NCBI RefSeq assembly: GCF_016793705.1
Contig: NZ_JAEULO010000068.1
Span: forward strand, 186,001 to 250,000
Direction of reading: 5' to 3'
Origin: Tabrizicola sp.
Lineage (GTDB): Bacteria > Pseudomonadota > Alphaproteobacteria > Rhodobacterales > Rhodobacteraceae
Length of the DNA stretch: 64,000 nucleotides
Shown piece by piece: positions 9,900-63,392 of the stretch. Numbering within the stretch: the stretch's first letter is position 1; each line of letters begins with the position of its first letter. The translations under genes and the position numbers were made by a program. Below the pieces are notes generated by a model. That model made no database searches, was not told the origin of the DNA, and saw only the letters and a program-made list of their open reading frames with translations.

Positions 9900-10012
9900 C
9901 GACCAGGCGGCGGATTAGCGCGATTTTTCCGCTTGCGCCAGAGCGGCTGCGTCTTTAGCCAAGGCGTCGGGACACCCTTCCCCAACGAAGGGCTTTTAGC
10001 TGGAAGGCTACC
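9900..10012 (+). ncRNA. Probable serC-type 5' leader RNA
   Basis: The serB-serC intergenic region contains two stem-loops before serC: CCGCT/AGCGG at 9929-9946 and CCCTTC-CCCAAC-GAAGGG at 9975-9992. The second is followed by CTTTTAGC and then the ribosome site GGAAGG (10002-10007). Alphaproteobacterial serC-serA operons are known to carry a structured leader called the serC motif, with a terminator-like hairpin near the start codon; position and gene context fit. I could not align it to the covariance model, so the class call is tentative. Confidence 0.45.
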
Positions 10013-11170
10013 ATGACTGACCTGACTCCGCCGGCCAAGCGCCCGGCCAATCCGCGCTTCTCCTCCGGCCCCTGCGCCAAGATCCCCGGTTATTCCCTCG
10101 ACATGATCGCCGACGCCCCCCTCGGGCGGTCGCATCGTGCTGCCGTCGGCAAGGCGAAGCTGAAAGAGGCCATCGACCTTACCCGCGAGATCCTCGGCGT
10201 TCCTGCCGACTACCGCATCGGCATCGTCCCCGCCTCCGACACCGGCGCGGTGGAAATGGCGCTGTGGTCGCTGCTCGGCGCCCGCCCGGTGGAGATGCTG
10301 GCCTGGGAAAGCTTCGGCGAGGGCTGGGTCACGGATGTGGTCAAGCAGCTGAAACTCGACGCCACCGTGCGCAAGGCACCCTACGGGCAGATCGTGGATT
10401 TCGCGCAGGTCGACTTCGACAAGGACGTGGTCTTCACCTGGAACGGCACCACCTCCGGCGTCCGCCTGCCGAACGGCGATGCAATCCCGGCGGATCGCGC
10501 TGGCCTGACGATCTGTGACGCGACCTCGGCCGCCTTCGCGATGGACCTGCCCTGGGACAAGCTCGACGTGACCACCTTCTCCTGGCAGAAGGTGCTGGGC
10601 GGCGAGGGCGCGCATGGGATGCTGGTCCTCAGCCCCCGCGCCGTCGAACGGCTGGAAAGCTACACCCCCGCCTGGCCGCTGCCAAAGATCTTCCGGCTGA
10701 CCGCGAAGGGCAAGCTGATCGAGGGCATCTTCCAGGGCGAGACGATCAATACGCCCTCGATGCTGGCGAACGAGGATTACCTTGTCGCCCTGAAATGGGC
10801 GAAATCTGTCGGTGGGCTGAACGGCCTGATCGCCCGCGCGAATGCCAACGCGCAGGCGGTTCATGACTTCTGCGCCGCGAATCCCTGGATCGCGAACCTC
10901 GCCGAAGACCCGGCGACCGCCTCCACCACCTCCGTCTGCCTGAAGTTCACCGATCCCCGCATCACCGACGGCGAGGCTTTCGCCAAGGCGGTGGCGAAAC
11001 GGATCGAGAAGGCCGGCGCGGGCTTCGACCTCGGCGCCTACCGCGACGCCCCTCCGGGGTTGCGCATCTGGTGCGGGTCCACCGTGGAAACGGCGGACGT
11101 GCAGGCGCTGATGCCCTGGATCGCCCACGCCTTCCACGCCGAGATCGCCGCGCTGGCCCAGGCCGCGTGA
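10013..11170 (+). CDS. serC: Phosphoserine aminotransferase
   Basis: SerC converts 3-phosphohydroxypyruvate and glutamate to 3-phosphoserine and 2-oxoglutarate, with PLP. The 385-residue protein belongs to the alphaproteobacterial/archaeal SerC branch. It shows the substrate-binding start ([12 protein letters not shown]), [13 protein letters not shown], and the PLP lysine K193 in [21 protein letters not shown] at 10002-10007 supports ATG 10013. serA follows on the same strand after 79 nt occupied by a large palindrome, so the two are a likely operon producing serine with the divergent serB. Confidence 0.95.
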
Positions 11171-49004: not shown

Positions 49005-51005
49005 ATGGCGATCTTTCTGGGTGTCGATACCGGGGGCACCTATACCGATGCGGTGATCCTGGACGAGGCGGCGAATACGGTCCTCGGCAAGGCCAAGGCG
49101 CTGACCTCGCGGCACGACCTTGCGGTGGGGATCGGCGAGGCGGTGGATGCGGCCATCGCGGCGGCGGGGGTCGGGGCGGCGGACGTGGCGCTGGTGTCGC
49201 TCTCCACCACTTTGGCGACCAACGCGCTGGTCGAGGGCCAGGGCGCCCGCGTGGCGCTGGTCTTCATCGGCTTCGACGATGCCGACCTCGGCCGCAGCGG
49301 CCTGACCGAGGCCTTGAAGGGCGACCCGGTGGTGAAGTTGCCAGGCGGGCATACCCATGCCGGGACCGAGGCCGCACCGCTGGACCTCGGGCTGCTGGAA
49401 CTCATGGTGCGGGAACTGGGCGACGAGGTGTCGGGCTTCGCCGTCGCCTCACAATTCGCGACGCGGAACCCCGCGCACGAGATCGCGGCGCGCGACCTGA
49501 TCCGCCGGGTGACGGGGCGGCCCGTGACCTGCTCGCATGAGCTGTCCGCCAACCTGAACGGCCCGAAGCGCGCCCTCACCGCCGTGCTGAACGCCCGGCT
49601 GATCGGGATGATCGACCGGCTGGTCGCCGCCTGCGAGCGGCATCTGGTGCAGGTGGGCATCGACGCGCCGCTGATGGTGGTGCGCGGCGACGGGGCGCTG
49701 ATTTCCGCCGCCATGGTGCGCGAACGGCCGATCGAGACGATCCTCAGTGGCCCCGCCGCCAGCATCGTCGGCGCGCGCTGGCTGACCGGGGCCTCCGACG
49801 CGCTGGTCAGCGACATCGGCGGGACGACGACCGACGTGGCGCTCCTGCGCGGCGGGCTGCCCGAGATCGACCCGCAGGGCGCGCGGGTGGGCGGCTTCCG
49901 CACTATGGTCGAGGCGGTGGCGATGCGCACGACCGGCCTTGGCGGCGACAGCGAGGTGCATCTGGTAACGGAAGGCCTGACGGGCGGGTTGCGGCTTGGC
50001 CCCCGTCGGCTGATGCCGGTCTCGCTCCTCGCGATGGAGCATGGCGAGATGGTCCATGCGGCGCTCGACCGCTGGCTCTCGTCCGAGGCGGTGGGCGAGA
50101 TGGACGGCCGTTTCGTCGTGCCGATGTCGGGCCAGCGCGGCGGGTTGAACGCCCGCGAACTGGCGGTGCTGGAGCGGATCACCAGGCCGATGACCATGGC
50201 CGCCGCGCTGACCTCGCGGCTCGAGGTCGCGGCGCTGGAACGGCTGGTCGCGCGGGGGCTGGTGATGCTCTCGGGCGTCACCCCCTCGGACGCGGCGCAT
50301 GTGCTGGGGCGGCTGGACAGCTGGGACGGCGCGGCAGCGGAAAAGGCCCTGCGCCTGATCGCCAAGAGGCGCACCGGGGCGGGCGAGCGCTTCGCCACCG
50401 GGCCGAAGGTCTTCGCGCAAGCGGTGGTGGATCAACTGACGCAGCAGACAGTCGATTGCCTTCTGGAAGCCGCTTTCGGCGAGGATGCGGAGTTCGCGGA
50501 TGAAGCGCCGGAAACCCTCGCCCGCCACACGCTGACCAGGGCGGGCCTCGCCCGGCACCGGGGCGTTCTGGAGCTGGACGTCAGGCTTGGCGTCCCGGTC
50601 ATCGGCCTCGGCGCCTCGGCCCCCTCCTACTATGGTGCGGTGGGCGAAAGGCTGCATTGCCAGACGATCCTGCCCGAACATGCCGGTGTGGCGAACGCCA
50701 TCGGCGCGGTGGCGGGGCAGGTCAGCCAGCGGGCAACCGGCACGGTGTCGTCGCCCGCCGAAGGCCGCTACGTCGCGCATCTGGCCGAAGGGCTGGAAAG
50801 CTTCTCCTCCTCGGAAGTCGCTCTCGCCGCGCTGGAAGCCGCGCTGGTCGCCGACGCCTCTTCCCGCGCGCGGGAGGCCGGGGCGGTGGACCTGCGGGTG
50901 ACGGTCGAGCGCGAGGTGAACGAGGTCGAGATCGAGGGCCGCACCATGTTCATCGAAGCGCGGGTCACGGCCACGGCTTCGGGCAGGCCAAGGGTGGCGC
51001 ACTAG
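49005..51005 (+). CDS. Hydantoinase/oxoprolinase family protein, HyuA-type subunit
   Basis: A 666-residue protein with an actin-like ATPase fold. The N-terminus IFLGVDTGGTYTDAVILD and the second phosphate loop SDIGGTTTDVALLRGG are the family signatures. HyuA works with HyuB to open hydantoin, oxoproline or N-methylhydantoin rings at the cost of ATP. No hyuB lies beside it here, and the length is near that of stand-alone HyuA subunits. Either the partner is elsewhere or the enzyme has another role, as in acetone or acetophenone carboxylase relatives. Confidence 0.87.
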   Translation: MAIFLGVDTGGTYTDAVILDEAANTVLGKAKALTSRHDLAVGIGEAVDAAIAAAGVGAADVALVSLSTTLATNALVEGQGARVALVFIGFDDADLGRSGLTEALKGDPVVKLPGGHTHAGTEAAPLDLGLLELMVRELGDEVSGFAVASQFATRNPAHEIAARDLIRRVTGRPVTCSHELSANLNGPKRALTAVLNARLIGMIDRLVAACERHLVQVGIDAPLMVVRGDGALISAAMVRERPIETILSGPAASIVGARWLTGASDALVSDIGGTTTDVALLRGGLPEIDPQGARVGGFRTMVEAVAMRTTGLGGDSEVHLVTEGLTGGLRLGPRRLMPVSLLAMEHGEMVHAALDRWLSSEAVGEMDGRFVVPMSGQRGGLNARELAVLERITRPMTMAAALTSRLEVAALERLVARGLVMLSGVTPSDAAHVLGRLDSWDGAAAEKALRLIAKRRTGAGERFATGPKVFAQAVVDQLTQQTVDCLLEAAFGEDAEFADEAPETLARHTLTRAGLARHRGVLELDVRLGVPVIGLGASAPSYYGAVGERLHCQTILPEHAGVANAIGAVAGQVSQRATGTVSSPAEGRYVAHLAEGLESFSSSEVALAALEAALVADASSRAREAGAVDLRVTVEREVNEVEIEGRTMFIEARVTATASGRPRVAH

Positions 51006-51080
51006 GGCTGCTCCTCATTCGGCTGTTCCCGACGAGGAGACGAAGTCGAACGAGGAGGCCCAAGCCGAGCCGATTCACCC

Positions 51081-51109
51081 TTGACCTCTTCCCGCCGCGC
51101 CCTTAATCC
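51081..51109 (+). promoter_or_regulatory. Sigma-70-type promoter of tRNA-Met
   Basis: TTGACC (51081-51086) and TAATCC (51104-51109) are separated by exactly 17 bases, and the mature tRNA begins 11 bases after the second. This fits a vegetative promoter driving the tRNA gene alone. Confidence 0.6.
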
Positions 51110-51119
51110 GCCCGCCAGT

Positions 51120-51196
51120 GGCTAGGTAGCTCAGCTGGTTAGAGCGCGCGACTCATAATCGCGAGGTCGAGGGTTCGAGTCCCTCCCTCGCCACCA
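51120..51196 (+). tRNA. tRNA-Met (anticodon CAT), probably elongator
   Basis: A complete cloverleaf can be drawn: acceptor starting GGCTAGG, D arm GCTC-AGCTGGTTA-GAGC, anticodon stem CGCGA/TCGCG with loop CTCATAA, T arm GAGGG-TTCGAGT-CCCTC, and encoded CCA. The GGCTA start and loop match elongator tRNA-Met better than tRNA-Ile(CAU) or initiator tRNA. One acceptor pair is a mismatch (T4 opposite C69), where CCTAGCC would be expected instead of the CCTCGCC seen. Confidence 0.93.
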
Positions 51197-51350
51197 CTTC
51201 CCGAAGACCCTGACGATCCCGGAGGCCCGTAGCCCCGCCTCGGTGCGGCCGTCCCGCGGCCAAGAAAGCCATTGCAGCGCAGGCCGGGCGCTGATTGATT
51301 GCATTAACAATGCCTTGCCCTGACCAGCCCTTGCGACGGGGTCCGGACCC

Positions 51351-54300
51351 TTGACCAGTCAGACCGACAGCTTCCTGGCGCGCTGCCTGTCCATTGACCT
51401 GGAGGTGGACCCGAAGACCGCGCGGCTTTTCGCCTTCGGCGCGCTGCGGGGCGGGGAGACGCTGGCCTACCGCGCCGGACCCTGGGCCGCTCTCGACATG
51501 GCACTCGACCGGCTGGAGGCGTTCAGTGCCGGGGCGACACATCTCGTCGGGCACAACATCCTGCGCCATGACCTGCCGCATCTGGCGGCGAACCGGGCGC
51601 GGCTGGCCGGGCTGGGCGCAGCGGCCGTCGACACGCTTTGGCTGAACCCGCTCGCCTTCCCGCGCAATCCCTATCACCACCTGGTCAAGCATTATCAGGA
51701 CGGGCGGCTGGAGGTCGGCCATGTCAACGACCCGGTGGAAGATGCCCGGCTGGCGATGCAGCTTTTGTCCGACCAGATCGCCGCCTTCGCCCGGCTGGGA
51801 GAGGAAAGCCCGGACACACTGGCCGCCTGGCACCACTTGACCACCCGCGGGTCCGAGGCGCCGGGCTTCGATGCCCTCTTCCAGGCGCTGCGCGGCCCCG
51901 CCCCCGGCGAGGCGGCAGCCCATGCGGCGATCCGGCGGCTCTTGACGGGGCAGGCCTGCAACCACCGGCTCGACCAGACGCTCGAGCGCCTCTCCGATCC
52001 GCAGAACGGCTGGCCGATGGCCTATGCGCTGGCCTGGATTTCGGTCGCGGGCGGGGCCTCGGTGATGCCGCCCTGGGTGCGGTTGCAGTTCCCGCAGGCC
52101 GCGCGGATCGTCCGCGACCTGCGCGACTCCAACTGCGGCGACCCGGCCTGCGCCTGGTGCCGCGAGGGAAACGATCCGGGCCGCGCGCTGGAGCGCTGGT
52201 TCGGCTTTCCCGCCTTCCGGCCAGAGCCCGTGGACCCGGAAACCCGCAGGCCGCTTCAGGAACGCATCGTCGCCGAGGCGATGGCGGGCAAGTCGGTGCT
52301 GGGCATCCTGCCCACCGGCACCGGGAAATCGGTCTGCTACCAGATCCCGGCCCTGTCCCGCTTTGACCGGACCGGGGCGCTGACGGTGGTCATCTCGCCC
52401 CTTGTCGCGCTGATGGCAGACCAGGTGCAGGGCATGGCACGGGCGGGCATCTCCTGCGCCGTCACGGTGAACGGGATGCTGTCGCTGCCCGAACGCCACG
52501 ACGCGCTGGAGAAGGTGCGGATGGGCGATGCGGCGATGCTGCTGATCTCGCCCGAACAGCTGCGCTCGCCTTCCGTCCGCTCCGTGCTGCACCAGCGCGA
52601 GGTCGGGCTCTGGGTGCTGGACGAGGCGCATTGCATCTCGAAATGGGGCCACGATTTCCGCCCCGACTACCGCTATGTCAGCCGCTTCATCAGGGAATCC
52701 TCGGGCGACAGCGTGCCGCCGGTCCTGTGCCTGACCGCCACGGCGAAGCCGGAGGTGGTGCGCGACATCCGCGACCATTTCCAGACGCGTGTGGGCGTCG
52801 ACCTCATGCTTCTCGATGGTGGCGCGGTGCGGACCAACCTGCATTTCGATGTCCTGCCGACGCAGAAGGCCACCAAGCTCTCCGACATCCTGACGGCAAT
52901 CGAGGCGCACTTGCCGTCCGAAGGTGGCTCGGGCGCGATTGTCTATTGCGCCACGCGCGCCACGACCGAACGGGTGGCGGGGCATCTCAAGGCGCAGGGG
53001 CTGGCGGCGGACCACTTCCATGCGGGCCTTGAGCCCGAGCGCAAGCGCGAGGTGCAGGAGGCCTTCCGCACCGGCCAGCTTCGGGTCATCGCCGCGACCA
53101 ACGCCTTCGGCATGGGCATCGACAAGCCCGACATCCGGCTGGTGGTGCACGCCGACATTCCGGGCTCGCTGGAGAACTACCTGCAAGAGGCGGGCCGCGC
53201 AGGCCGGGACCGGGCACCCGCCCGTTGTGTGCTGCTCTACGACCCCGAGGATGTCGAGCGGCAATTCTCGCTCTCGGCCCGGTCGCGACTGGCCCGGCAC
53301 GAGATCGGCGCGATCCTCAAGGCGCTTCGGCGGATGGAGAAGCACAAGTCGGGCGAGGTGGTCGCCACCCCGGGCGAGATCGTGCGCGAGGAGAAGGACC
53401 AGGCGTTCGAGCGCGACCGGCAGACCGACGACACCCGCGTCAAGACCGCCGTCGCCTGGCTGGAGGAGGCGACGCTCCTCTCGCGTGAGGAGAACCGGGT
53501 GATGGTCTTCCCCTCCGCGCTACGCATCCGCACGGTCGAGGACGCGGCGGCAATCCTTGACCGTGCCGATATCACGGGGGCGCGGAAGAAGCAGCTTCTG
53601 GATCTTGTCCGCCATGTGATGAACGCGGCCCCAGACGCTGGCGTGTCGACCGACGATCTGATCGGCGCGACCGGGCTTGCGGGCAAGGGCGTGGCCAAGG
53701 CCCTGGCCGATCTGGAGGCGCTGGGGATCGCCCGCAACGACACCGCGATCACCGTCTACCTGCACCTCGGCGTCGAGGACGCCTCGACCCGGCGGCTGGA
53801 GCAGGCGGCACGGCTGGAGACCGACCTGATCGAACTCATGCAGGAGGCCGCGCCAGATGCGCAGGGCAGCGTGCTGCCACTCCATCTGACCGAAACCTGT
53901 CAGGCGCTCCGCGACCGGGGCCATGTCCAGGTGCGGCCCGATCTGGTCGAGACGATCCTGCGCAGCATGGCGCAGGACGGGCGCGACCACGAGGGCAAGA
54001 GCGGTAGCCTGACGCTGCGAAAGCTCAGCCGGAACAGTCTGTCGCTGCGGCTGGGGCGGTCGTGGTCGCTGGTCGCGCGCATCGCCGATCTCCGCCGGCA
54101 AGGGGCGCAGGTGTTGCTGTCGCACCTGATCGGGCGGGCGGCAAAGGGCGCGCGGGGCAAGGATGTCCAGGTCGACACCATCCTTGGCGCGATGCTGGAC
54201 GCGCTGAACGGCGATGCCCTTCTGCGGGCTGACGTCAAGGACATGACCCGGCTGATGGACCGCGCGCTTCTCTGGCTGCATGAGCAGCGGATCGTGACGC

Positions 54301-56459
54301 TGGGCCGCGGGCTGACCGTGTTCCGCCCGGCAATCACCGTGCATCTGAACCCGAAGGGTGGGCTCTTCACGCTGAATCATTTTGCGCCTTTGGAAGAGCA
54401 TTACACCGAAACGACGATCCAGACGCATGTGATGGCCGCCTATGCCGAAATCGGGCTTGCCGACATCAATCGGGCGCAGAAGCTGGCCGAGGATTACTTC
54501 AGGCTCGACCGCGACAGCTTCCTGCGGCAGTGGCTGCCGGGGCGCTCCACCGACCTCCGGCGGCAGACCACCAGCGCCTCATGGCGCGCCATCGTCGAGG
54601 CGCTGGACAATCCCGCCCAGGCCGAGATCGTGCGCGACGACCGCGAGCAGACCAACGTGCTGGTGCTGGCGGGGCCGGGGTCGGGCAAGACCCGCGTCCT
54701 TGTCCACCGCATCGCCTATCTGGTCCGGGTCCGGCGCGAGGACCCGCGCGGCATCCTGGTTCTGACCTACAACCGTCACGCCGCAGCCGAAGTCCGCGAA
54801 CGCTTGCGCCGCCTGATCGGCGAGGATGCGGTGCTGGTCACGGTCTTGACCTGCCACGCGCTGGCGATGCGGCTGGTCGGTGCCAGCTTCGCGGGCGACC
54901 CGGGTCGCGAGCGCGACTTTGACGGCATCGTCATGCAGGCGGTGGCGCTTCTGCGCGGCGACGGCCTCACCCGGCCCGAGGCCGAGGCCCTTCGCGAGAC
55001 GCTGATCCAGGGCTACCGATGGCTTCTGGTCGACGAATATCAGGACATCGGCCCCGAGGAATACGCCCTGATCGGCGCGGTGGCGGGCCGGTCGCTGGAG
55101 GACCCCGACCTGAAGATCAGCCTCTTCGCGGTGGGCGACGACGACCAGAACATCTACGCCTTCGCCGGGGCCTCGATCGACTTCATCCGCCGCTTCGAGG
55201 CGGATCATGCCGCGAAGCCCGTCTGGCTGACCGAGAACTACCGCTCCACCGGCCATATCATCGCTGCCGCGAATGCCGTCATCGCCCCGGCGGCGGGGCG
55301 GATGAAGGCGGGGCACGACATCACCGTGAACCGCGCGCGGGCGAAGGACCCGCCGGGGGGCGACTGGTCTGCACTCGACCCGGCGGCGCAGGGCCGCGTC
55401 ACCCTGCTCGACGCCGGGCCGGGCGCGCGGGCGCAGGCGGTGGCGGCCCTGGACGAGTTGCAGCGCCTGTCGCGTCTCGACCCGGACTGGTCCTGGCGCA
55501 GATGCGCCGTGATCGCCCGCGACTGGAAGCGGCTCCTTCCGCTGCGCGCCCATGCCGAGGCGCTCGGCATCCCGGTCGACATGGCGAACGAGAAGATGCC
55601 AAGCCTCTGGCGCCTGCGCGAGATGCAGGCCTTCATCCGCGCGCTCCTGGCAGACCGTGCGCGGATGCTGGGTGTCGACGACCTTGTCGCGCTCCTCAAC
55701 GCCCAGCCGCAGACCCGCTGGACCGACCTGGTCGGCGAGGGGATCGGCGCCCTGGCCCGCGAGCTGGCGGAAAAGACCGCGACCGTCCCCGATCTGGTGC
55801 AATGGTTCGGCGAATGGGCCCGCTCGGCGCGGGGCGAGCAGCGCGGGCTGTTGCTTCTGACCGCGCATCGTTCCAAAGGGCTGGAGTTCGACCATGTCGC
55901 GATCCTGGACGGCGGCTGGGACCGCCCGTCCCGCAACGAGGATGCCGAGGCCCCGCGCCGCCTGTTCTATGTCGCCATGACGCGGGCAAGGCAGACCCTG
56001 ACCGTGCTGACCGGCGGCGCCCATGCCCTTGTCCGGCCGGGCGGGTGCGTCCTGCCGCGCCGGGTCCGTCCGGACCTTACCGCCGCGCCCGGCGTGCACC
56101 GGCACTACATTCCTGCCGATCCGAAGCTGGTGGACCTGTCCTACGCCGGACGCCTGAAACCCGGCCATCCCGCGCTTGCCGCCATCGCCGCCGCGCGTCC
56201 GGGCGATCCGGTGCGTCTTCTGCGGCAGGGCGACCGCTGGCAGATCGAGAACGAGGCGGGAATCGTGCTGGGCCGCATGTCACGCTCTTTCCACCCACCC
56301 GATACGGGCGCACTCCTGTGCGGCGAGGTCGCCGCGATCCTCGGCTGGCGCGGGAAGGACGGTCAGGACGACTACGCCCGCCACCTGCATCGCGAGGCTT
56401 GGGAGGTGGTTCTGCCCGAGCTTGTCTATACGCTCAGCGCACCCGCCCCGGCAGCGTGA
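51351..56459 (+). CDS. DEDD exonuclease - RecQ helicase - UvrD/Rep helicase fusion
   Basis: A 1702-residue protein with three enzymatic parts. Residues 10-140 look like a DnaQ-type exonuclease (D16/E18 in SIDLE, HNxxxxD with D74, D131 in VEDAR, with N126 where DEDDh has His). About 295-700 is a RecQ-type helicase (K326 Walker A, DEAHCISKWGHDFRPDY at 424). About 1090-1600 is a UvrD/Rep superfamily 1A helicase (GPGSGKT with K1113, DEYQD at 1228, GDDDQNIYAFAGA, TENYRSTGHI, TAHRSKGLEF, VAMTRARQTL). The start is TTG 51351. A role in replication repair or foreign-DNA defence is inference. It lies just after tRNA-Met and converges on gnd. Confidence 0.88.
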   Translation: MTSQTDSFLARCLSIDLEVDPKTARLFAFGALRGGETLAYRAGPWAALDMALDRLEAFSAGATHLVGHNILRHDLPHLAANRARLAGLGAAAVDTLWLNPLAFPRNPYHHLVKHYQDGRLEVGHVNDPVEDARLAMQLLSDQIAAFARLGEESPDTLAAWHHLTTRGSEAPGFDALFQALRGPAPGEAAAHAAIRRLLTGQACNHRLDQTLERLSDPQNGWPMAYALAWISVAGGASVMPPWVRLQFPQAARIVRDLRDSNCGDPACAWCREGNDPGRALERWFGFPAFRPEPVDPETRRPLQERIVAEAMAGKSVLGILPTGTGKSVCYQIPALSRFDRTGALTVVISPLVALMADQVQGMARAGISCAVTVNGMLSLPERHDALEKVRMGDAAMLLISPEQLRSPSVRSVLHQREVGLWVLDEAHCISKWGHDFRPDYRYVSRFIRESSGDSVPPVLCLTATAKPEVVRDIRDHFQTRVGVDLMLLDGGAVRTNLHFDVLPTQKATKLSDILTAIEAHLPSEGGSGAIVYCATRATTERVAGHLKAQGLAADHFHAGLEPERKREVQEAFRTGQLRVIAATNAFGMGIDKPDIRLVVHADIPGSLENYLQEAGRAGRDRAPARCVLLYDPEDVERQFSLSARSRLARHEIGAILKALRRMEKHKSGEVVATPGEIVREEKDQAFERDRQTDDTRVKTAVAWLEEATLLSREENRVMVFPSALRIRTVEDAAAILDRADITGARKKQLLDLVRHVMNAAPDAGVSTDDLIGATGLAGKGVAKALADLEALGIARNDTAITVYLHLGVEDASTRRLEQAARLETDLIELMQEAAPDAQGSVLPLHLTETCQALRDRGHVQVRPDLVETILRSMAQDGRDHEGKSGSLTLRKLSRNSLSLRLGRSWSLVARIADLRRQGAQVLLSHLIGRAAKGARGKDVQVDTILGAMLDALNGDALLRADVKDMTRLMDRALLWLHEQRIVTLGRGLTVFRPAITVHLNPKGGLFTLNHFAPLEEHYTETTIQTHVMAAYAEIGLADINRAQKLAEDYFRLDRDSFLRQWLPGRSTDLRRQTTSASWRAIVEALDNPAQAEIVRDDREQTNVLVLAGPGSGKTRVLVHRIAYLVRVRREDPRGILVLTYNRHAAAEVRERLRRLIGEDAVLVTVLTCHALAMRLVGASFAGDPGRERDFDGIVMQAVALLRGDGLTRPEAEALRETLIQGYRWLLVDEYQDIGPEEYALIGAVAGRSLEDPDLKISLFAVGDDDQNIYAFAGASIDFIRRFEADHAAKPVWLTENYRSTGHIIAAANAVIAPAAGRMKAGHDITVNRARAKDPPGGDWSALDPAAQGRVTLLDAGPGARAQAVAALDELQRLSRLDPDWSWRRCAVIARDWKRLLPLRAHAEALGIPVDMANEKMPSLWRLREMQAFIRALLADRARMLGVDDLVALLNAQPQTRWTDLVGEGIGALARELAEKTATVPDLVQWFGEWARSARGEQRGLLLLTAHRSKGLEFDHVAILDGGWDRPSRNEDAEAPRRLFYVAMTRARQTLTVLTGGAHALVRPGGCVLPRRVRPDLTAAPGVHRHYIPADPKLVDLSYAGRLKPGHPALAAIAAARPGDPVRLLRQGDRWQIENEAGIVLGRMSRSFHPPDTGALLCGEVAAILGWRGKDGQDDYARHLHREAWEVVLPELVYTLSAPAPAA

Positions 56460-56465
56460 GCGTCC

Positions 56466-57863
56466 TCAGCCTTTCGCCCAGGGTCCGTGCGGCTGGTCCA
56501 GCCCGTCAATCCGCTGGAATCCGTGCAGCCCGAAGAAATCGCGCTGGCCCTGGATCATGTTCGCCGTCCCGCGCGCCGTCCGCATCAGGTCGAACCAGGC
56601 CAGCCCCGCCGACAGCGCGGGCAGCCCCAGCCCATGCAGCGCGCCCGCCGCCACCACCCGGCGCAAGGCCGGAAGCGTCCGGCGCAGGTGATCGGCAAAG
56701 AAGGGGGCCAGCATCAGGTTGCGACCGGGGTCCTCGGCAAGCGCCTCTGCCATGTCGTTCAGCATCGCCGAGCGGATGATGCAGCCCGCCCGCCAGACCC
56801 GCGCCACCCGGGGCATGTCCAAGGCCCAGCCGAACTCGCCCGCCGCCGCCGTCATCATCGCGAAGCCCTGGGCATAGCACAGGATCTTCCCCGCGATCAG
56901 CGCCTGTTCCAGATCGTCCAGCGCAACCTCAACCCGCTCCGGCCCCGGCCCGTACAAGGCCTCGCCCGCTGCCCGCTCGCCGCGCCGGGAGGACACGTTC
57001 CGCGCCATCACCGCCGCCTCGATCACCGGGATCGGGGTGCCGAGGTTCTGCGCCTCGATCGCCGTCCAGCGCCCGGTGCCCTTCTGCCCCGCCGCATCGA
57101 CGATCATGTCCAGAAGCGGCCCGCCCTTGACCGGATCCGCCGCCCCTGCCACCGCCGCCGAAATCTCCACCAGGTAGGACCGCAGCACGCCCTCGTTCCA
57201 GCGCGCGAAAACCGGGGCGATTTCTGCGGCGCTCATCCCCAGCCCGTCGCGCATCACGCCATAGACTTCGGCGATCATCTGCATGTCGGCATATTCGATG
57301 CCGTTGTGGACGGCCTTGACGAAATGGCCCGCGCCGCCTTCGCCCATGTGGTCGGCGCAGGGGGTGCCGTCCTCGGCCCGGGCGGCGATGGCCTGGAACA
57401 CCTTGCGCATCCGCTGCCAGTGGATGGGCAGGCCGCCCGCCATGATCGCCGGCCCATGCCGCGCCCCTTCCTCGCCCCCCGACACGCCGATGCCCATGAA
57501 GCCGAAGGGCAGGCCCGCCGCCGCCCGGCGGTTGGTGTCGTGGAAGTTGGCGTTGCCCGCGTCGATCACCAGATCCTCGGGCTGGAGGAGCGGCGCCAGC
57601 GCGGCGAGTTGGTCGTCGACCGGCTGGCCCGCCGGGACCATCAGGATGATCGAGCGCGGGCCTGCCATCGCCGCGACCAGCGCCTGCAGCGTGTCGGTCG
57701 GCACGATCCGCGCGGCAAGATCGCCCGCCCCGGCGTGGAAATCGTGCGTCACGCTGGTCGTCCGGTTCCAGACCGCGATCGGAAACCCCTTCTCCGCGAT
57801 GTTCAGCGCCAGTGCCGCCCCCATGGTGCCAAGGCCGACCAGCCCGACCTGCGGTTTCTGCAT
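56466..57863 (-). CDS. gnd: 6-phosphogluconate dehydrogenase (decarboxylating)
   Basis: Gnd oxidises 6-phosphogluconate to ribulose 5-phosphate and CO2 with NADP. The 465-residue protein has the nucleotide fold [20 protein letters not shown], the substrate motifs [19 protein letters not shown] and [16 protein letters not shown] (catalytic lysine), and a normal C-terminus. The ATG at 57863 has GGGAGGA upstream. It is divergent from cobQ over a 184-bp region holding a nested palindrome, and ends six bases from the helicase fusion. Confidence 0.95.
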
Positions 57864-57885
57864 CGCGATTCCTCCCATTCCGCCG

Positions 57886-57917
57886 CCCGGCGGTGTTTGC
57901 GCAAACAGACCGCCGGG
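57886..57917. promoter_or_regulatory. Nested palindrome in the gnd-cobQ regulatory region
   Basis: Outer arms CCCGGCGGT (57886-57894) and ACCGCCGGG (57909-57917) enclose the perfect 12-bp palindrome GTTTGCGCAAAC (57895-57906). The core with central CG resembles operators of LacI/GalR-family regulators. It is 23 bases upstream of the gnd start, so control of gnd is the simpler reading. Confidence 0.5.
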
Positions 57918-58047
57918 ACATGTCGGGGTCAAGCCCAAAGCCACCCTGGCCGGGGGGCATGGCGCGAACCCGCGGCGTCGCCGCCGGGACCGGCGGGAGT
58001 CGCTTCTGGCGCTGGCTGCGACGCCGCCGCGCATGATAAGGGGGCGC

Positions 58048-59490
58048 ATGACCTATCGTTTCATGATCCAGGGCGCAGGCTCGAACGTCGGCAAGTCGCT
58101 GCTCGTCGCGGGCCTCTGCCGTCATTTCACGCGGCTCGGAATGACCGTCCGCCCGTTCAAGCCGCAGAACATGTCAAACAACGCCGCGGTGGCGACGGGC
58201 GGCGAGATCGGCCGCGCCCAGGCCCTGCAGGCCCGTGCCTGCAAGGCGTCGCCGCATGTCGACATGAACCCCGTCCTTCTGAAGCCCGAATCCGAAACCG
58301 GCGCCCAGGTCATCGTGCAGGGCCAACGCCTGACCACGGTGAAGGCCCGCGACTATGCGGTGCTGAAGCCGCAGCTGATGACCCCGGTGCTGGACAGTTT
58401 CCGCCGCCTGCAGGCACAAGCCGACCTCGTCATCGTCGAAGGCGCGGGCAGCCCGGCGGAAGTGAACCTGCGAGCGGGGGACATCGCCAACATGGGCTTC
58501 GCGCGCGCCGCCGATGTGCCGGTGATCCTGACCGGAGACATCGACCGCGGCGGCGTCATCGCGCAACTGGTCGGTACGCAGGCCGTTCTCGACCCCGAAG
58601 ATGCCGCGCTGATCCGGGGCTTCCTGGTCAACAAGTTCCGCGGCGACCCCCGGCTTTTCGACGAGGGCTACCGCCTGATCGAAAGCCGTACCGGCTGGCA
58701 GGCCCTCGGCGTCATCCCCTGGTTCCCCCAGGCCCACCGCCTCCCCGCCGAAGACGCGGCCGATCTCGGGGGCACGCGCGGCAGCGGCAGCTTCCTCATC
58801 GCCGTCCCCCACCTGAACCGTATCGCCAATTTCGACGACCTCGATCCGCTGGCGCAGGAGCCCGGCGTCACTCTGAAGATCGTCAAGCCCGGCCAGCCCC
58901 TGCCGGTCGAGGCCGACCTGATCATTCTGCCGGGAAGCAAGGCCACCATCGCCGACCTCGCCCATTTCCGGGCGCAGGGCTGGGACATCGACCTCGCCGC
59001 CGCCCTGAGACGCGGCGCAAAAGTCCTCGGCCTCTGCGGCGGCTACCAGATGCTCGGGAAGGAAATCGCCGACCCCGACGGCATCGAGGGCAAGCCCGGC
59101 TCCGTCCCCGGCCTCGGCCTTCTCGACCTCACCACCACGATGACCCCCGACAAGCGCGTCACGGAAACCGAAGCGATCCATCCCGCCTCCGGCACCCGCG
59201 TCACCGGCTACGAAATCCACCTCGGTCGCACGGACGGCCCCGACCGCGCCCGCCCGATGTTCACCGTGAACGGCCAGCCCGAAGGCGCGATCCGCGCCGA
59301 TGGCCGCGTCATGGGCAGCTACCTGCACGGCATGTTCAGCGAAGACAGATTCCGGCGCGCCTTCCTCGCCAGCCTCGGCGCCACGCCGGGCAATGCCAGC
59401 TACGACGCCACGGTCGAGGAAACCCTCGACGCCCTCGCTGACCACCTGGCGGCGCATGTCGACTGCGAAGCCCTGTCGAAGCTGGCGTAG
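58048..59490 (+). CDS. cobQ: Cobyric acid synthase
   Basis: CobQ amidates four carboxyl side chains of adenosylcobyrinate a,c-diamide using glutamine and ATP, late in vitamin B12 synthesis. The 480-residue protein has the dethiobiotin-synthetase-like ATPase domain ([28 protein letters not shown]) and a class I glutamine amidotransferase domain with C330 ([10 protein letters not shown]) and H427 (YLHGMF). ATG 58048 starts the family N-terminus. No other cob genes are in the window and I see no cobalamin riboswitch upstream. Its TAG stop is within a palindromic repeat. Confidence 0.95.
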
Positions 59491-60387: not shown

Positions 60388-61290
60388 TCACCCGCCCGCG
60401 CAGTCCGCGATCGTTTCCGCCAGACCGCGCAGCAGCGCCGCATAGGCCCCCGGCCCGGCCTCGAGCGAGGACCCCACCGGATCCAGTGCGGCGCCGATCC
60501 TGACCCCGGTCCCCTCGGCCAGCTGGTCCATCAAGGCCGGGTCATGCTGCACCTCCGGGAAGAGGCAGACCACGCCCCCCGCCTCGATCTGCTGCCGCAA
60601 CCCGGCCAACCGCGCGGCACCGGGCGACGAGGCATCCCCCAGCGCGATGCTGCCGACGAAATCCAGCCCGTAATGGTCGCCGAAATAGCCGAAGGCATCG
60701 TGGAAGCTGACGATGGGCTTGCCCTGCACCGGCGCCAGGATCGCCGCCACCTCTGCGTCCAGCGCCGCGACCTGCGCCGCCGCCGCCTCTGCATTGGCCT
60801 GATAGGTGCCCGCATGCTCCGGGTCCAGCCGCGCCAGTTCCGCCGCGATCAGCCCAAGCCAGACCTGCGCATTGCCGGGGTCGAGCCAGGCATGGGGGTC
60901 CTCGGAGCCATGGTCGTGGCCCGCTTCGTCGTGGTCGTGATCGTCCTCTCCCTCGCCCTCGGCATAGCTGCGGCGCAGGGTTCCCTCGGCATCCAGCAGC
61001 GCCAGCGAGGCCGCGCCTTCGGGCCGGGTTTCCAGTGCACCCTCCAGCCAGGGCGTCAGCTCCGGCCCGATCCAGACCACCAGACCGGCCCCGGCCACCG
61101 CCCCGGCCTGGCTGGGACGCAGCTGGAAGTCATGCTCGTCCGCCCCCTTGGCCAGCAAAAGCTCCGGCTGCCCCAGATCGCCCATCACCTGCGCGACCAG
61201 AGCGTGCACCGGGGGGATGTCGGTCACGACCGAAGGCACCTCGGCGAGGGCGGGGGTGGCGGTCATGAGGAGAGTAATGATATAACGCAT
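60388..61290 (-). CDS. znuA: Zinc ABC transporter substrate-binding protein
   Basis: ZnuA captures periplasmic zinc for the ZnuBC permease. The 300-residue cluster A-I protein has a signal peptide (MRYIITLLMTATPALA), the zinc histidines in ADEHDFQLRPSQ (H53), DPHAWLDP (H133) and SFHDAFGYFG, and a His/Asp-rich flexible loop (EGEGEDDHDHDEAGHDHGSE) characteristic of zinc, not manganese, binders. It is divergent from zur-znuC-znuB over 71 bases that contain the probable Zur operator. Confidence 0.95.
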   Translation of the reverse strand: MRYIITLLMTATPALAEVPSVVTDIPPVHALVAQVMGDLGQPELLLAKGADEHDFQLRPSQAGAVAGAGLVVWIGPELTPWLEGALETRPEGAASLALLDAEGTLRRSYAEGEGEDDHDHDEAGHDHGSEDPHAWLDPGNAQVWLGLIAAELARLDPEHAGTYQANAEAAAAQVAALDAEVAAILAPVQGKPIVSFHDAFGYFGDHYGLDFVGSIALGDASSPGAARLAGLRQQIEAGGVVCLFPEVQHDPALMDQLAEGTGVRIGAALDPVGSSLEAGPGAYAALLRGLAETIADCAGG

Positions 61291-61323
61291 CAGTCTGGCC
61301 TTTCCTTTGCGCCGATCTATGTA

Positions 61324-61338
61324 TGTAATATCATAACA
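61324..61338. promoter_or_regulatory. Probable Zur operator
   Basis: TGTAAT-ATC-ATAACA is an inverted repeat matching at five of six arm positions, in the only AT-rich part of the znuA-zur spacer. Proteobacterial Zur sites have this TGTTAT-type symmetry. The position serves both divergent units: 34 bases from znuA and 24 bases from the zur start. Confidence 0.65.
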
Positions 61339-61361
61339 CGTCAACCCCCGTGATACCGCCC

Positions 61362-61853
61362 ATGCCCGATTCCACCTCCCCCGACCTCGCCTTCGCCGCC
61401 CATGACCACACCCATTGCGCCCATGATGCGCTGGAACGGGCCGAGGCGCTGACGAAGGCCAGCGGCGCAAGGATGACCCCGGTCCGCCGCCGGGTTCTGG
61501 AAATCCTGCTGGAAGAACACAAGGCGCTCGGCGCCTATGACGTGCTGGCCCGGCTGGCGGTGGAGGGCTTCGGCAACCAGCCCCCCGTCGCCTATCGCGC
61601 GCTGGAATTCCTGGTGGAGCAAGGCCTTGCCCACCGCATCCAGCGGCTGAATGCCTTCACCGCCTGCACCCATCCCGGTCAGGACCACGCCCCCGCCTTC
61701 CTGATCTGCCGCCTCTGCCACATGGTCGCCGAGGCCGAAGCCTCCGCCGCCCGCACGGCACTCGACGCCGAGGCCGCCCGCGCCGGTTTCCAGGTCGAAC
61801 GCTCGACCATCGAGGCGCTCGGCCTCTGCCCGAACTGCCGGGAGGCCGCATGA
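61362..61853 (+). CDS. zur: Zinc uptake regulator, Fur family
   Basis: A 163-residue Fur-family repressor. It has the DNA-binding winged helix (ARMTPVRRRVLEILLEEHKALGAYDVL), and the structural zinc cysteine pairs CRLC and CPNC. The N-terminus is histidine-rich (FAAHDHTHCAHD). With zinc bound it should repress znuA and its own znuCB unit from the operator immediately upstream. ATG 61362 is chosen over GTG 61350; no strong ribosome site precedes either. The stop overlaps the znuC start (ATGA). Confidence 0.93.
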   Translation: MPDSTSPDLAFAAHDHTHCAHDALERAEALTKASGARMTPVRRRVLEILLEEHKALGAYDVLARLAVEGFGNQPPVAYRALEFLVEQGLAHRIQRLNAFTACTHPGQDHAPAFLICRLCHMVAEAEASAARTALDAEAARAGFQVERSTIEALGLCPNCREAA

Positions 61854-62617
61854 GCCTGATCACCGCCGACCACATCTGCGTCCGCTTCGGGGCGGAGGAA
61901 GTGCTTCACGACATCAGCCTGACCGTCCGGCCCGGCGAGATCGTCACCATCCTCGGCCCCAACGGGTCCGGCAAGTCCACGCTGCTGAGGGCGCTCCTGG
62001 GCATCGTTCCGGCCGCCGAGGGGCGGATCACCCGCCAGCCCGGCCTGCGCATCGGCTATGTCCCGCAGCGGCTGACGATCGACCGCACCATGCCGATCAC
62101 CGTGCGCCGGTTCCTGTCGCTCCCCTCCCGCGTCAGCGATGCCCAGGCCGGGGAGGCGCTGGCGCGTGTCGGCATGGCGGGGCAGGGGCATGAGCAGATG
62201 ACCACGCTGTCCGGCGGCCAGTTGCAGCGGGTGCTGCTGGCCCGCGCGCTATTGGGTCGCCCGCAGCTCCTGATGCTGGACGAGCCGACCTCCGGCCTCG
62301 ACCAGCCCGGCGAGGCGGCCTTCTACCGGCTGATCGAGGAGGTGAGGGCGGAAACCGGCGCCGCCGTTCTGATGATCAGCCACGACCTGCATGTGGTGAT
62401 GGCCGCCAGCGACCGGGTGATCTGCCTCAACGGCCATATCTGCTGCGAGGGCACGCCCCGCGTGGTCTCGACCGCGCCGGAATACCGCGCGCTCTTCGGT
62501 CTCGGGACGCAGGGCGCGCTGGCGCTCTACCGCCACGAACACGACCACGCGCATGAGGACGGGCCGCACCACCATCACCACGGGCACGACCACAGCCATG
62601 ATCATCCCCATGCTTGA
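61850..62617 (+). CDS. znuC: Zinc ABC transporter ATP-binding protein
   Basis: The 255-residue ATPase of the zinc importer. It shows Walker A GPNGSGKST, signature LSGGQLQRVLLARALL, Walker B LLMLDEPTSGLD and switch histidine MISHDLHVV. The C-terminal tail is extremely histidine-rich (HHHHHGHDHSHDHPHA and upstream His-Glu-Asp), a likely zinc sensor or store attached to the ATPase. It overlaps zur by four bases and znuB by eight. Confidence 0.95.
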   Translation: MSLITADHICVRFGAEEVLHDISLTVRPGEIVTILGPNGSGKSTLLRALLGIVPAAEGRITRQPGLRIGYVPQRLTIDRTMPITVRRFLSLPSRVSDAQAGEALARVGMAGQGHEQMTTLSGGQLQRVLLARALLGRPQLLMLDEPTSGLDQPGEAAFYRLIEEVRAETGAAVLMISHDLHVVMAASDRVICLNGHICCEGTPRVVSTAPEYRALFGLGTQGALALYRHEHDHAHEDGPHHHHHGHDHSHDHPHA

Positions 62618-63392
62618 CGATTTCCTTGTGCGCGCCGGGCTTGCCGCCGTCGGCCTCTCGCTCGCCACCGGCCCGCTCGGGTCTTTCGTCGTCTGGCGGC
62701 GGATGGCCTATTTCGGCGATGCCACCGCCCATGCCGCCGTCCTGGGCGTGGCGCTGGCGCTGGCGACCGACCTGCCCATCGGCCTTGGCACGCTGACCGT
62801 TGCCCTTGCCATGGCCGTCACCGTCGCGGGCCTCTCGGCGCGGGGCTGGGCGATGGACACCACGCTCGGCGTCCTGGCCCATTCCGCGCTGGCCTTCGGC
62901 CTGGTTGCGGTCAGCTTCTTCCCGACCGTGCGCACCGACCTCTCCGCCTATCTTTTCGGCGACATCCTCGCCGTCAGCCGGGGCGACCTTGCGCTGGTCT
63001 GGCTCGGCGCGCTGGCTGTCCTCGCCCTTCTGGCCTGGCGCTGGCAGGCGCTTCTCACCGCCACCGTCAGCGAGGACCTCGCCCATGCCGCCGACATCCG
63101 CCCCGACCGCGAGCGGCTTGTCCTCGTCATCGCCCTCGCGCTGGTCGTCGCCGTGGCGCTGAAGATCGTCGGCGCGCTTCTCATCGCCGCCATGCTGATC
63201 ATCCCCGCCGCCACCGCCCGCAGCTTCGCCCGCACACCCGAGGCGATGGCCGCCCTCGCCATCGCGATCGGCGCCGCCTCCGGGATCGGCGGCCTCGCCC
63301 TCTCGCTCTGGCAGGACACGCCCACCGGCCCCTCGATCATCGTGGTGGCCGCCGGACTCTTCGCACTGGCTTCGCTTCGGCAACAAAGTTAG
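62610..63392 (+). CDS. znuB: Zinc ABC transporter permease
   Basis: The 260-residue ABC-3-type permease of the zinc importer, with about eight membrane segments. Conserved family features are VVWRRMAYFGDATAHAAVLG near the N-terminus and KIVGALLIAAMLIIPAATA. ATG 62610 (MLDDFLV) is the usual family start; ATG 62598 is possible. It is the last gene of zur-znuC-znuB. Confidence 0.93.
   Translation: MLDDFLVRAGLAAVGLSLATGPLGSFVVWRRMAYFGDATAHAAVLGVALALATDLPIGLGTLTVALAMAVTVAGLSARGWAMDTTLGVLAHSALAFGLVAVSFFPTVRTDLSAYLFGDILAVSRGDLALVWLGALAVLALLAWRWQALLTATVSEDLAHAADIRPDRERLVLVIALALVVAVALKIVGALLIAAMLIIPAATARSFARTPEAMAALAIAIGAASGIGGLALSLWQDTPTGPSIIVVAAGLFALASLRQQS

Follow-up and report, generated by a model that had tools for sequence, protein, structure and literature searches.

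Background

In human WRN an exonuclease precedes the RecQ core within a single chain; WRN is not known to have an SF1 motor, and its exonuclease is of the DEDDy kind. RecQ and UvrD are both families of repair motors, and motors of both move 3'-5' by family. In Gabija a UvrD-type motor is coupled to a nuclease, the two being encoded by separate genes and the nuclease being an OLD-type ATPase nuclease. GajB, the UvrD-type motor, is described as a sensor of DNA termini (PMC10952713), and Gabija has been proposed to act in an end-dependent manner, on ends that are not covered by RecBCD/AddAB (PMC12407980). According to PMC4670107, a phosphoribosyltransferase domain forms part of RqlH, whose partner in E. 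coli is RqlI.

Here we describe a gene of Tabrizicola sp. whose 1702-residue product joins a predicted DEDD-type exonuclease domain, a RecQ-type SF2 helicase and a UvrD/Rep-type SF1 helicase. It lies in a stretch of 64,000 nucleotides (the window) of contig NZ_JAEULO010000068.1. GajB models match the SF1 part of the fusion, which like Gabija couples a UvrD-type motor to a nuclease; unlike Gabija, it unites this motor in one chain with a predicted DEDD exonuclease and an extra RecQ motor, and no OLD-type GajA gene adjoins it among the window ORFs inspected by eye. The arrangement of an exonuclease before a RecQ core is that of WRN, to which PDB matches extend over fusion residues 300-665. However, the fusion has Asn at the corresponding exonuclease position, and no RQC or HRDC family was detected in its residues 625-1090 (Pfam, down to E 10, where a diverged domain could be missed). 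With RqlH the fusion shares the character of an accessory RecQ-like helicase, and the PADLOC PsyrT model matches residues 300-667, but a search for Pfam domains at E 0.001 found no phosphoribosyltransferase in it. DpdF of the Dpd system gives the best PADLOC match (2.9e-115, residues 278-660), yet this match lies in the helicase core only, and the NCBIfam model NF041063 scores 203.3 against a cut-off of 550. The same SF2 core is found in housekeeping RecQ. The broad model TIGR00614 (recQ_fam) reaches 299.7 bits against a cut-off of 219.8 and is the sole NCBIfam match above its cut-off among the best 25 of 50, whereas the equivalog TIGR01389 stays at 345.7, below its cut-off of 640.2.

Among the best 25 of 81 PADLOC matches, the best stretch of each falls within one motor only, and no PADLOC 2023 model among these 25 covers the whole protein. 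We found no description of an exonuclease-RecQ-UvrD fusion in the open-access PMC literature. Annotated relatives are called RecQ family helicase or the like, and neither the nuclease nor the second motor shows in such a name.

The fusion gene and its protein

The gene occupies positions 51351..56459 of the forward strand, begins with TTG and starts 154 bp 3' of a tRNA-Met(cat) (51120..51196, forward strand; ARAGORN, Rfam). Both the frame and the tRNA are where a preliminary description of this DNA had placed them, and the second, stand-alone recQ which it mentioned is indeed a separate gene of the same genome (27911..30259, reverse strand), 43% identical to fusion residues 271-638. On the other side lies a convergent gene (56466..58049, reverse strand), recognised by eye as 6-phosphogluconate dehydrogenase-like. 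An operon with a 984-aa ORF at 56487-59441 (forward strand) was considered and rejected, since that ORF is antisense to this conserved convergent gene. A promoter and terminator scan of 51000-51500 gave no match.

Conservation was judged from an alignment of 87 rows, made up of the window protein, seven same-genus rows, 69 from the loci L038-L117, two from viral contigs and eight from plasmids; some genomes are represented twice. Five of the rows are distant (Thiothrix, Allochromatium, Bacteroides, Nostoc, Aliarcobacter) and span Gamma- and Epsilonproteobacteria, Bacteroidota and Cyanobacteria.

The preliminary description had read the protein as three-part, with a DnaQ-like exonuclease, a RecQ SF2 helicase and a UvrD/Rep SF1 helicase, and this is borne out, the exonuclease on the strength of residues, spacing and a structural model. 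Searches of residues 1-300 against Pfam, down to E 10, found no exonuclease family, and PDB-sequence profile searches with alignments of the exonuclease region and of the middle region returned chance-level matches only. The predicted domain takes in residues about 12-200 (51384..51950, forward strand). The four DEDD acids are kept wherever the residue is present: D16 and E18 in 84/84 rows, D74 in 85/85 and D131 in 87/87, the only gaps (three rows at D16/E18, two at D74) being due to cut N-termini. N126, H109 and K113 are likewise invariant. The AlphaFold2 model of this region, built with 61 sequences, has a pLDDT of 85.5 and a pTM of 0.82, residues 110-121 falling below 50. Among the best 50 of its 157 Foldseek matches in the PDB, DEDD exonucleases and the proofreading domains of polymerases predominate. 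A TREX1 homologue leads (E 7.8e-3, probability 1.00), followed among others by E. coli Pol II, an archaeal family B polymerase, S. aureus DinG and a DnaQ domain. None of the matches listed falls below 0.001, but they point consistently to a DEDD exonuclease, which would have an RNase H-like fold. The exonuclease is thus predicted from the invariant acidic residues, their spacing, the AlphaFold2 model and Foldseek together.

What distinguishes this domain is the residue five positions before D131. In DEDDh enzymes the His that acts as general base stands there; in the fusion it is N126 in 87/87 rows, as the preliminary description had noticed in the single sequence. Since N126 never changes, the Asn is not a product of random decay. 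H109 or another residue may replace the His as general base; it is also conceivable that the exchange of His for Asn could leave the nuclease weak or inactive. An invariant Asn at the usual position of a catalytic His poses a clear question of enzymology that lends itself to testing.

Ahead of the RecQ core stands a Cys motif, C262-x4-C267-x2-C270, within residues 258-270 (52122..52160, forward strand), a possible zinc knuckle. Its three cysteines occur in 85, 85 and 86 of the 87 rows; the motif is missing from the Nostoc row and partial in that of Aliarcobacter. The RecQ-type SF2 core covers residues 297-640 (52239..53270, forward strand), with Pfam DEAD at 300-471 and Helicase_C at 521-620 in addition to TIGR00614. 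The following middle region, residues 641-1085 (53271..54605, forward strand), gave no Pfam match that reaches the family cut-off, and its predicted structure is mostly helical, of low confidence (pLDDT 67.1), with weak winged-helix-like matches. Residues 1086-1560 (54606..56030, forward strand) form the UvrD/Rep-type SF1 helicase, with Pfam UvrD-helicase from 1087 (PF00580, 135.7 bits against a gathering score of 23) and UvrD_C at 1501-1552. Its Walker A and B motifs are intact, K1113, D1228 and E1229 being present in 87/87 rows, and Q1231 and D1232 are invariant as well, as are K326, D424, E425 and H427 of the RecQ motor. All motifs named beforehand (D16/E18/D74/D131, K326, DEAH at 424, K1113, DEYQD at 1228) are not only present but conserved. 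The protein ends in a variable tail, residues 1561-1702 (56031..56456, forward strand), its least conserved part, with the top dN in 5/5 pairs. Longer reading frames of 1829-1919 aa, mostly through C-terminal extensions, are seen in L014, L077, L079, L084, L092, L112 and L117, of which L014 and L084 are apparently the same sequence.

The dN/dS ratios (NG86, five pairs) are 0.10-0.14 for the exonuclease (residues 9-200), 0.11-0.13 for RecQ, 0.18-0.23 for the middle region, 0.10-0.23 for UvrD and 0.22-0.32 for the tail. The fusion is under purifying selection and its catalytic residues are kept.

Insertion site and distribution

Two genomes of the same genus (G008 and G007) have an empty site at this place (L195, L198); the same tRNA is there, and the homologous borders lie only 15 and 14 bp apart. 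A junction comparison and blastn delimit the missing segment as 5,273 bp at 51203..56475, bordered on the left by the tRNA-Met and on the right by the convergent gene; it carries the fusion ORF and no other long ORF. Hence the window contains a one-gene insertion, and the fusion is gained and lost as one unit. The right flanking gene was found at 16 same-genus loci, of which three include the tRNA-Met and allow the site to be judged; two of the three are empty and one has a different insert. The latter, about 0.9 kb long (L194:142-1025), has this tRNA-Met on one side and the flanking gene on the other, so that DNA seems to enter here repeatedly.

The nearest homologue, at 86%, belongs to a Fuscovulum MAG (L038) and shares its left flank and tRNA-Met with the window gene, from which the insertion seems to predate the split from that lineage. 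The tRNA is not a general partner of the fusion, as one lies within 500 bp upstream at only 4 of 91 tabulated loci (L001, which is the window gene, L011, L038 and L088), 85 of the 91 having at least 600 bp of upstream sequence. We also considered an element integrated into the tRNA with a duplicated tRNA end and rejected it, as the window holds no second copy within three mismatches and the segment lacks another long ORF.

Within the genus, essentially the full length of the protein is matched in 8 of 32 genomes (own included), and pieces only in at least four more (G009, G011, G014, G016). In G020, one of the eight, a stop was flagged within the match, yet an ORF of 1692 aa is read there. Sampling one genome per genus in the family, the fusion is present in 52 of 296, again with the own genome counted. 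The best match in 41 of these 52 lies in an open frame of at least 1600 aa; the remaining 11 are shorter, some perhaps because of contig ends. Across the phylum, 17 of 397 genomes have it, own included. One genome, G674, holds an intact copy together with fragments at two other places. The fusion gene is thus an accessory gene, some copies of which have decayed. The preliminary description had reasoned that universal presence in one clade, or loss of the catalytic residues, would count against a role in defence; what we see is a patchy gene with invariant residues.

Copies are also found on mobile elements. A plasmid collection gave 522 matching records, 16 of them at 80% coverage or more, and a scan of 2.9 million viral contigs gave two loci. 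Among phage records 73 match, none with a place that covers 80% of the query. In a FastTree tree of 78 rows there are at least four changes of order label, some labels being taken from MAG titles that may be wrong; a Sphingomonadales row is nested inside Rhodobacterales, and two copies from one strain of Pseudogemmobacter bohemicus fall in distant clades.

Genes beside the homologues

In the window itself, inspection by eye of the ORFs from 45 to 64 kb revealed no recognisable defence gene. Around homologues, proteins of several loci were chosen by eye as likely defence genes and then matched to PADLOC; 5/9 of the picks matched in one set and 8/8 in a second, those without a match being three of L112 and one of L061. 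L105 has GajA (4.5e-236) and GajB (2.1e-237) about 4 kb from the fusion homologue, L063 has DrmD, of DISARM type (7.8e-295), and L076 has mREase_IV (2.3e-114), a PLD-helicase enzyme resembling type IV restriction, with blastp homologues in L078, L082 (in pieces), L084, L091 and L105. Further matches are a PDC-S37/Hhe-like protein in L077 (with a homologue in L092), type III R-M and a DrmD-like protein in L060, DrmB and a type I REase in L043, AbiD and a type I REase in L040, and a type II methylase in L051. Among 12 annotated plasmid regions, two name a defence system: a type I R-M system is adjacent to the Allochromatium homologue, and type I-D CRISPR genes lie about 4 kb from that of Thiothrix. 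The other 10 show toxin-antitoxin genes, transposases, metabolic or hypothetical genes; two further regions carried no annotation. Clusters of ORFs that include a DUF3489 protein recur near the fusion in 9, 12 and 15 loci, and in Aliarcobacter the fusion adjoins partition and replication genes.

We also compared sets of proteins at E 1e-15. In 130 fusion neighbours 96 PADLOC models were matched, against 5 in 130 background proteins and 49 in 130 proteins of integrase regions, these tallies counting models rather than proteins, with a single protein able to match many models. The neighbours were 130 of 498 dereplicated proteins (557 before) from 62 of the 74 loci within L038-L117, at most 6 kb from the gene. 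The background was 130 of 305 proteins (309 before) from 20 hand-picked 20-kb stretches of the same contigs away from the gene, and the integrase set 130 of 204 proteins from 20 hand-picked stretches. Genes were called by a codon-bias script, and proteins below 100 aa or above 2000 aa were excluded. All control genomes carry the fusion, and the controls are not matched to the case loci. Integrases that resembled XerC/D, or that lay less than about 20 kb from a copy of the fusion, were omitted from the integrase set, so that those near fusion copies in G656, G596, G594, G505 and G674 do not contribute. The one in G656 is a tyrosine integrase (G656:C2:538687-539079) about 0.6 kb from the fusion copy at 539689; in the other four genomes the distance is 9-20 kb.

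The excess over background is large. The smaller excess over integrase regions is suggestive only, and with 49 models in that control a part of the association is common to any genomic island. Of the 25 models shown for the integrase set, each is matched by a single protein, and many of them seem to come from the same two proteins, a UvrD-type one and a type I methylase; the 25 shown for the case set have at most three proteins each. The model mad3 is unspecific, since it matches five background proteins against three in the case set. The role in defence that the preliminary description raised as a hypothesis is partly supported, in that many defence genes lie beside homologues when compared with background; the contrast with integrase regions is smaller, and no such neighbour was recognised in the window.

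Possible function

The fusion is probably an overlooked defence protein. We infer this from the kept catalytic residues, the purifying selection, the movement as a single gene and the several kinds of defence system that adjoin it. In its plain form, to which we incline by a little, the hypothesis is that a solitary, horizontally moved helicase-nuclease attacks the ends or branches of invading DNA, most likely as a single-gene module against phages or plasmids. Given that GajB is described as sensing DNA termini, an end-directed role would be natural. The UvrD and RecQ motors would load on single-stranded tails, either at ends or at branched replication or recombination intermediates of incoming DNA, and both would open its duplex; the N-terminal DEDD exonuclease would then degrade the 3' strand, and the invader could neither circularise nor replicate. 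Own DNA might be told from foreign by ends without RecBCD/AddAB cover, an idea borrowed from what PMC12407980 proposes for Gabija. The substrate and this discrimination are likewise inferred. The preliminary description had spoken of end processing or fork clearing; end processing agrees with the anatomy of a nuclease with two motors.

The main rival is an accessory enzyme of DNA repair or fork restart, which would clear stalled forks or resect ends for the host and spread horizontally because it is useful under DNA damage. Both motor families belong to repair, the homologues that are annotated go under RecQ family helicase (eight with the GO term DNA recombination), relatives of lower coverage reside on Deinococcus and cyanobacterial plasmids, and a repair gene could well travel in the same islands as defence genes. 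Against it stand the patchiness within one genus although the genome has a recQ of its own, the defence genes that are neighbours at several loci, and the fragments at two further places beside an intact copy in G674. We consider this explanation rather unlikely. Improbable, in our opinion, is that the gene serves the mobile elements themselves in their replication, recombination or the protection of incoming DNA, as a matter of plasmid, prophage or island fitness or of counter-defence. Its presence on plasmids and viral contigs, the recurrent DUF3489 clusters and the partition and replication genes in Aliarcobacter would agree with this, but the scarcity of viral loci, the phage records that all fall short of 80% of the query and the window insert, which consists of the fusion ORF alone, do not.

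If the fusion is defensive, several phyla have in it a large, self-contained system of helicases and nuclease for which none of the listed PADLOC 2023 models accounts in full. It could then show how foreign DNA ends are distinguished from own ones by a nuclease that works with two motors from different superfamilies. One may speculate further, and we do so with considerable doubt, that it is an unnamed one-gene immune system of several phyla, in whose single chain an SF1 motor that loads at ends, a RecQ motor that resolves branches and a DEDD nuclease of the Asn type with a displaced general base (perhaps the invariant H109) would destroy invading ends beyond the reach of a host repair nuclease.

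Additional observations

In three separate clades of its tree the fusion has a PLD-ResIII-DUF3427 gene, resembling type IV restriction, next to it, in one or the other of two orientations (L076:8456-11593, L091:8582-11593, L078:5933-9148, L084:793-3996, L105:6005-9157), and it is a possible functional partner. In L078, L082, L084 and L105 a small methyltransferase gene stands between the two. Extra matches of 1.7-1.9 kb found 5' of the gene in L076, L091 and L101 were attributed to upstream helicase genes there. Directly after the fusion homologue, L126:19876-27080 and L224:20486-27690 share a 7.2-kb stretch that is 99.97% identical, the fusion-homologue region itself being 79.6% identical. 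The records, Bacteroides finegoldii and Phocaeicola massiliensis, come from one study, and the stretch is either an element that moved recently or an artefact of assembly.

Elsewhere in the window, positions 9965-10016 correspond to a serC leader RNA (Rfam RF00517, 64.1 bits), and 60388-63392 hold what by eye resembles a zinc-uptake cluster, with a ZnuA-like ORF on the reverse strand and Zur-like, ZnuC-like and ZnuB-like ORFs.
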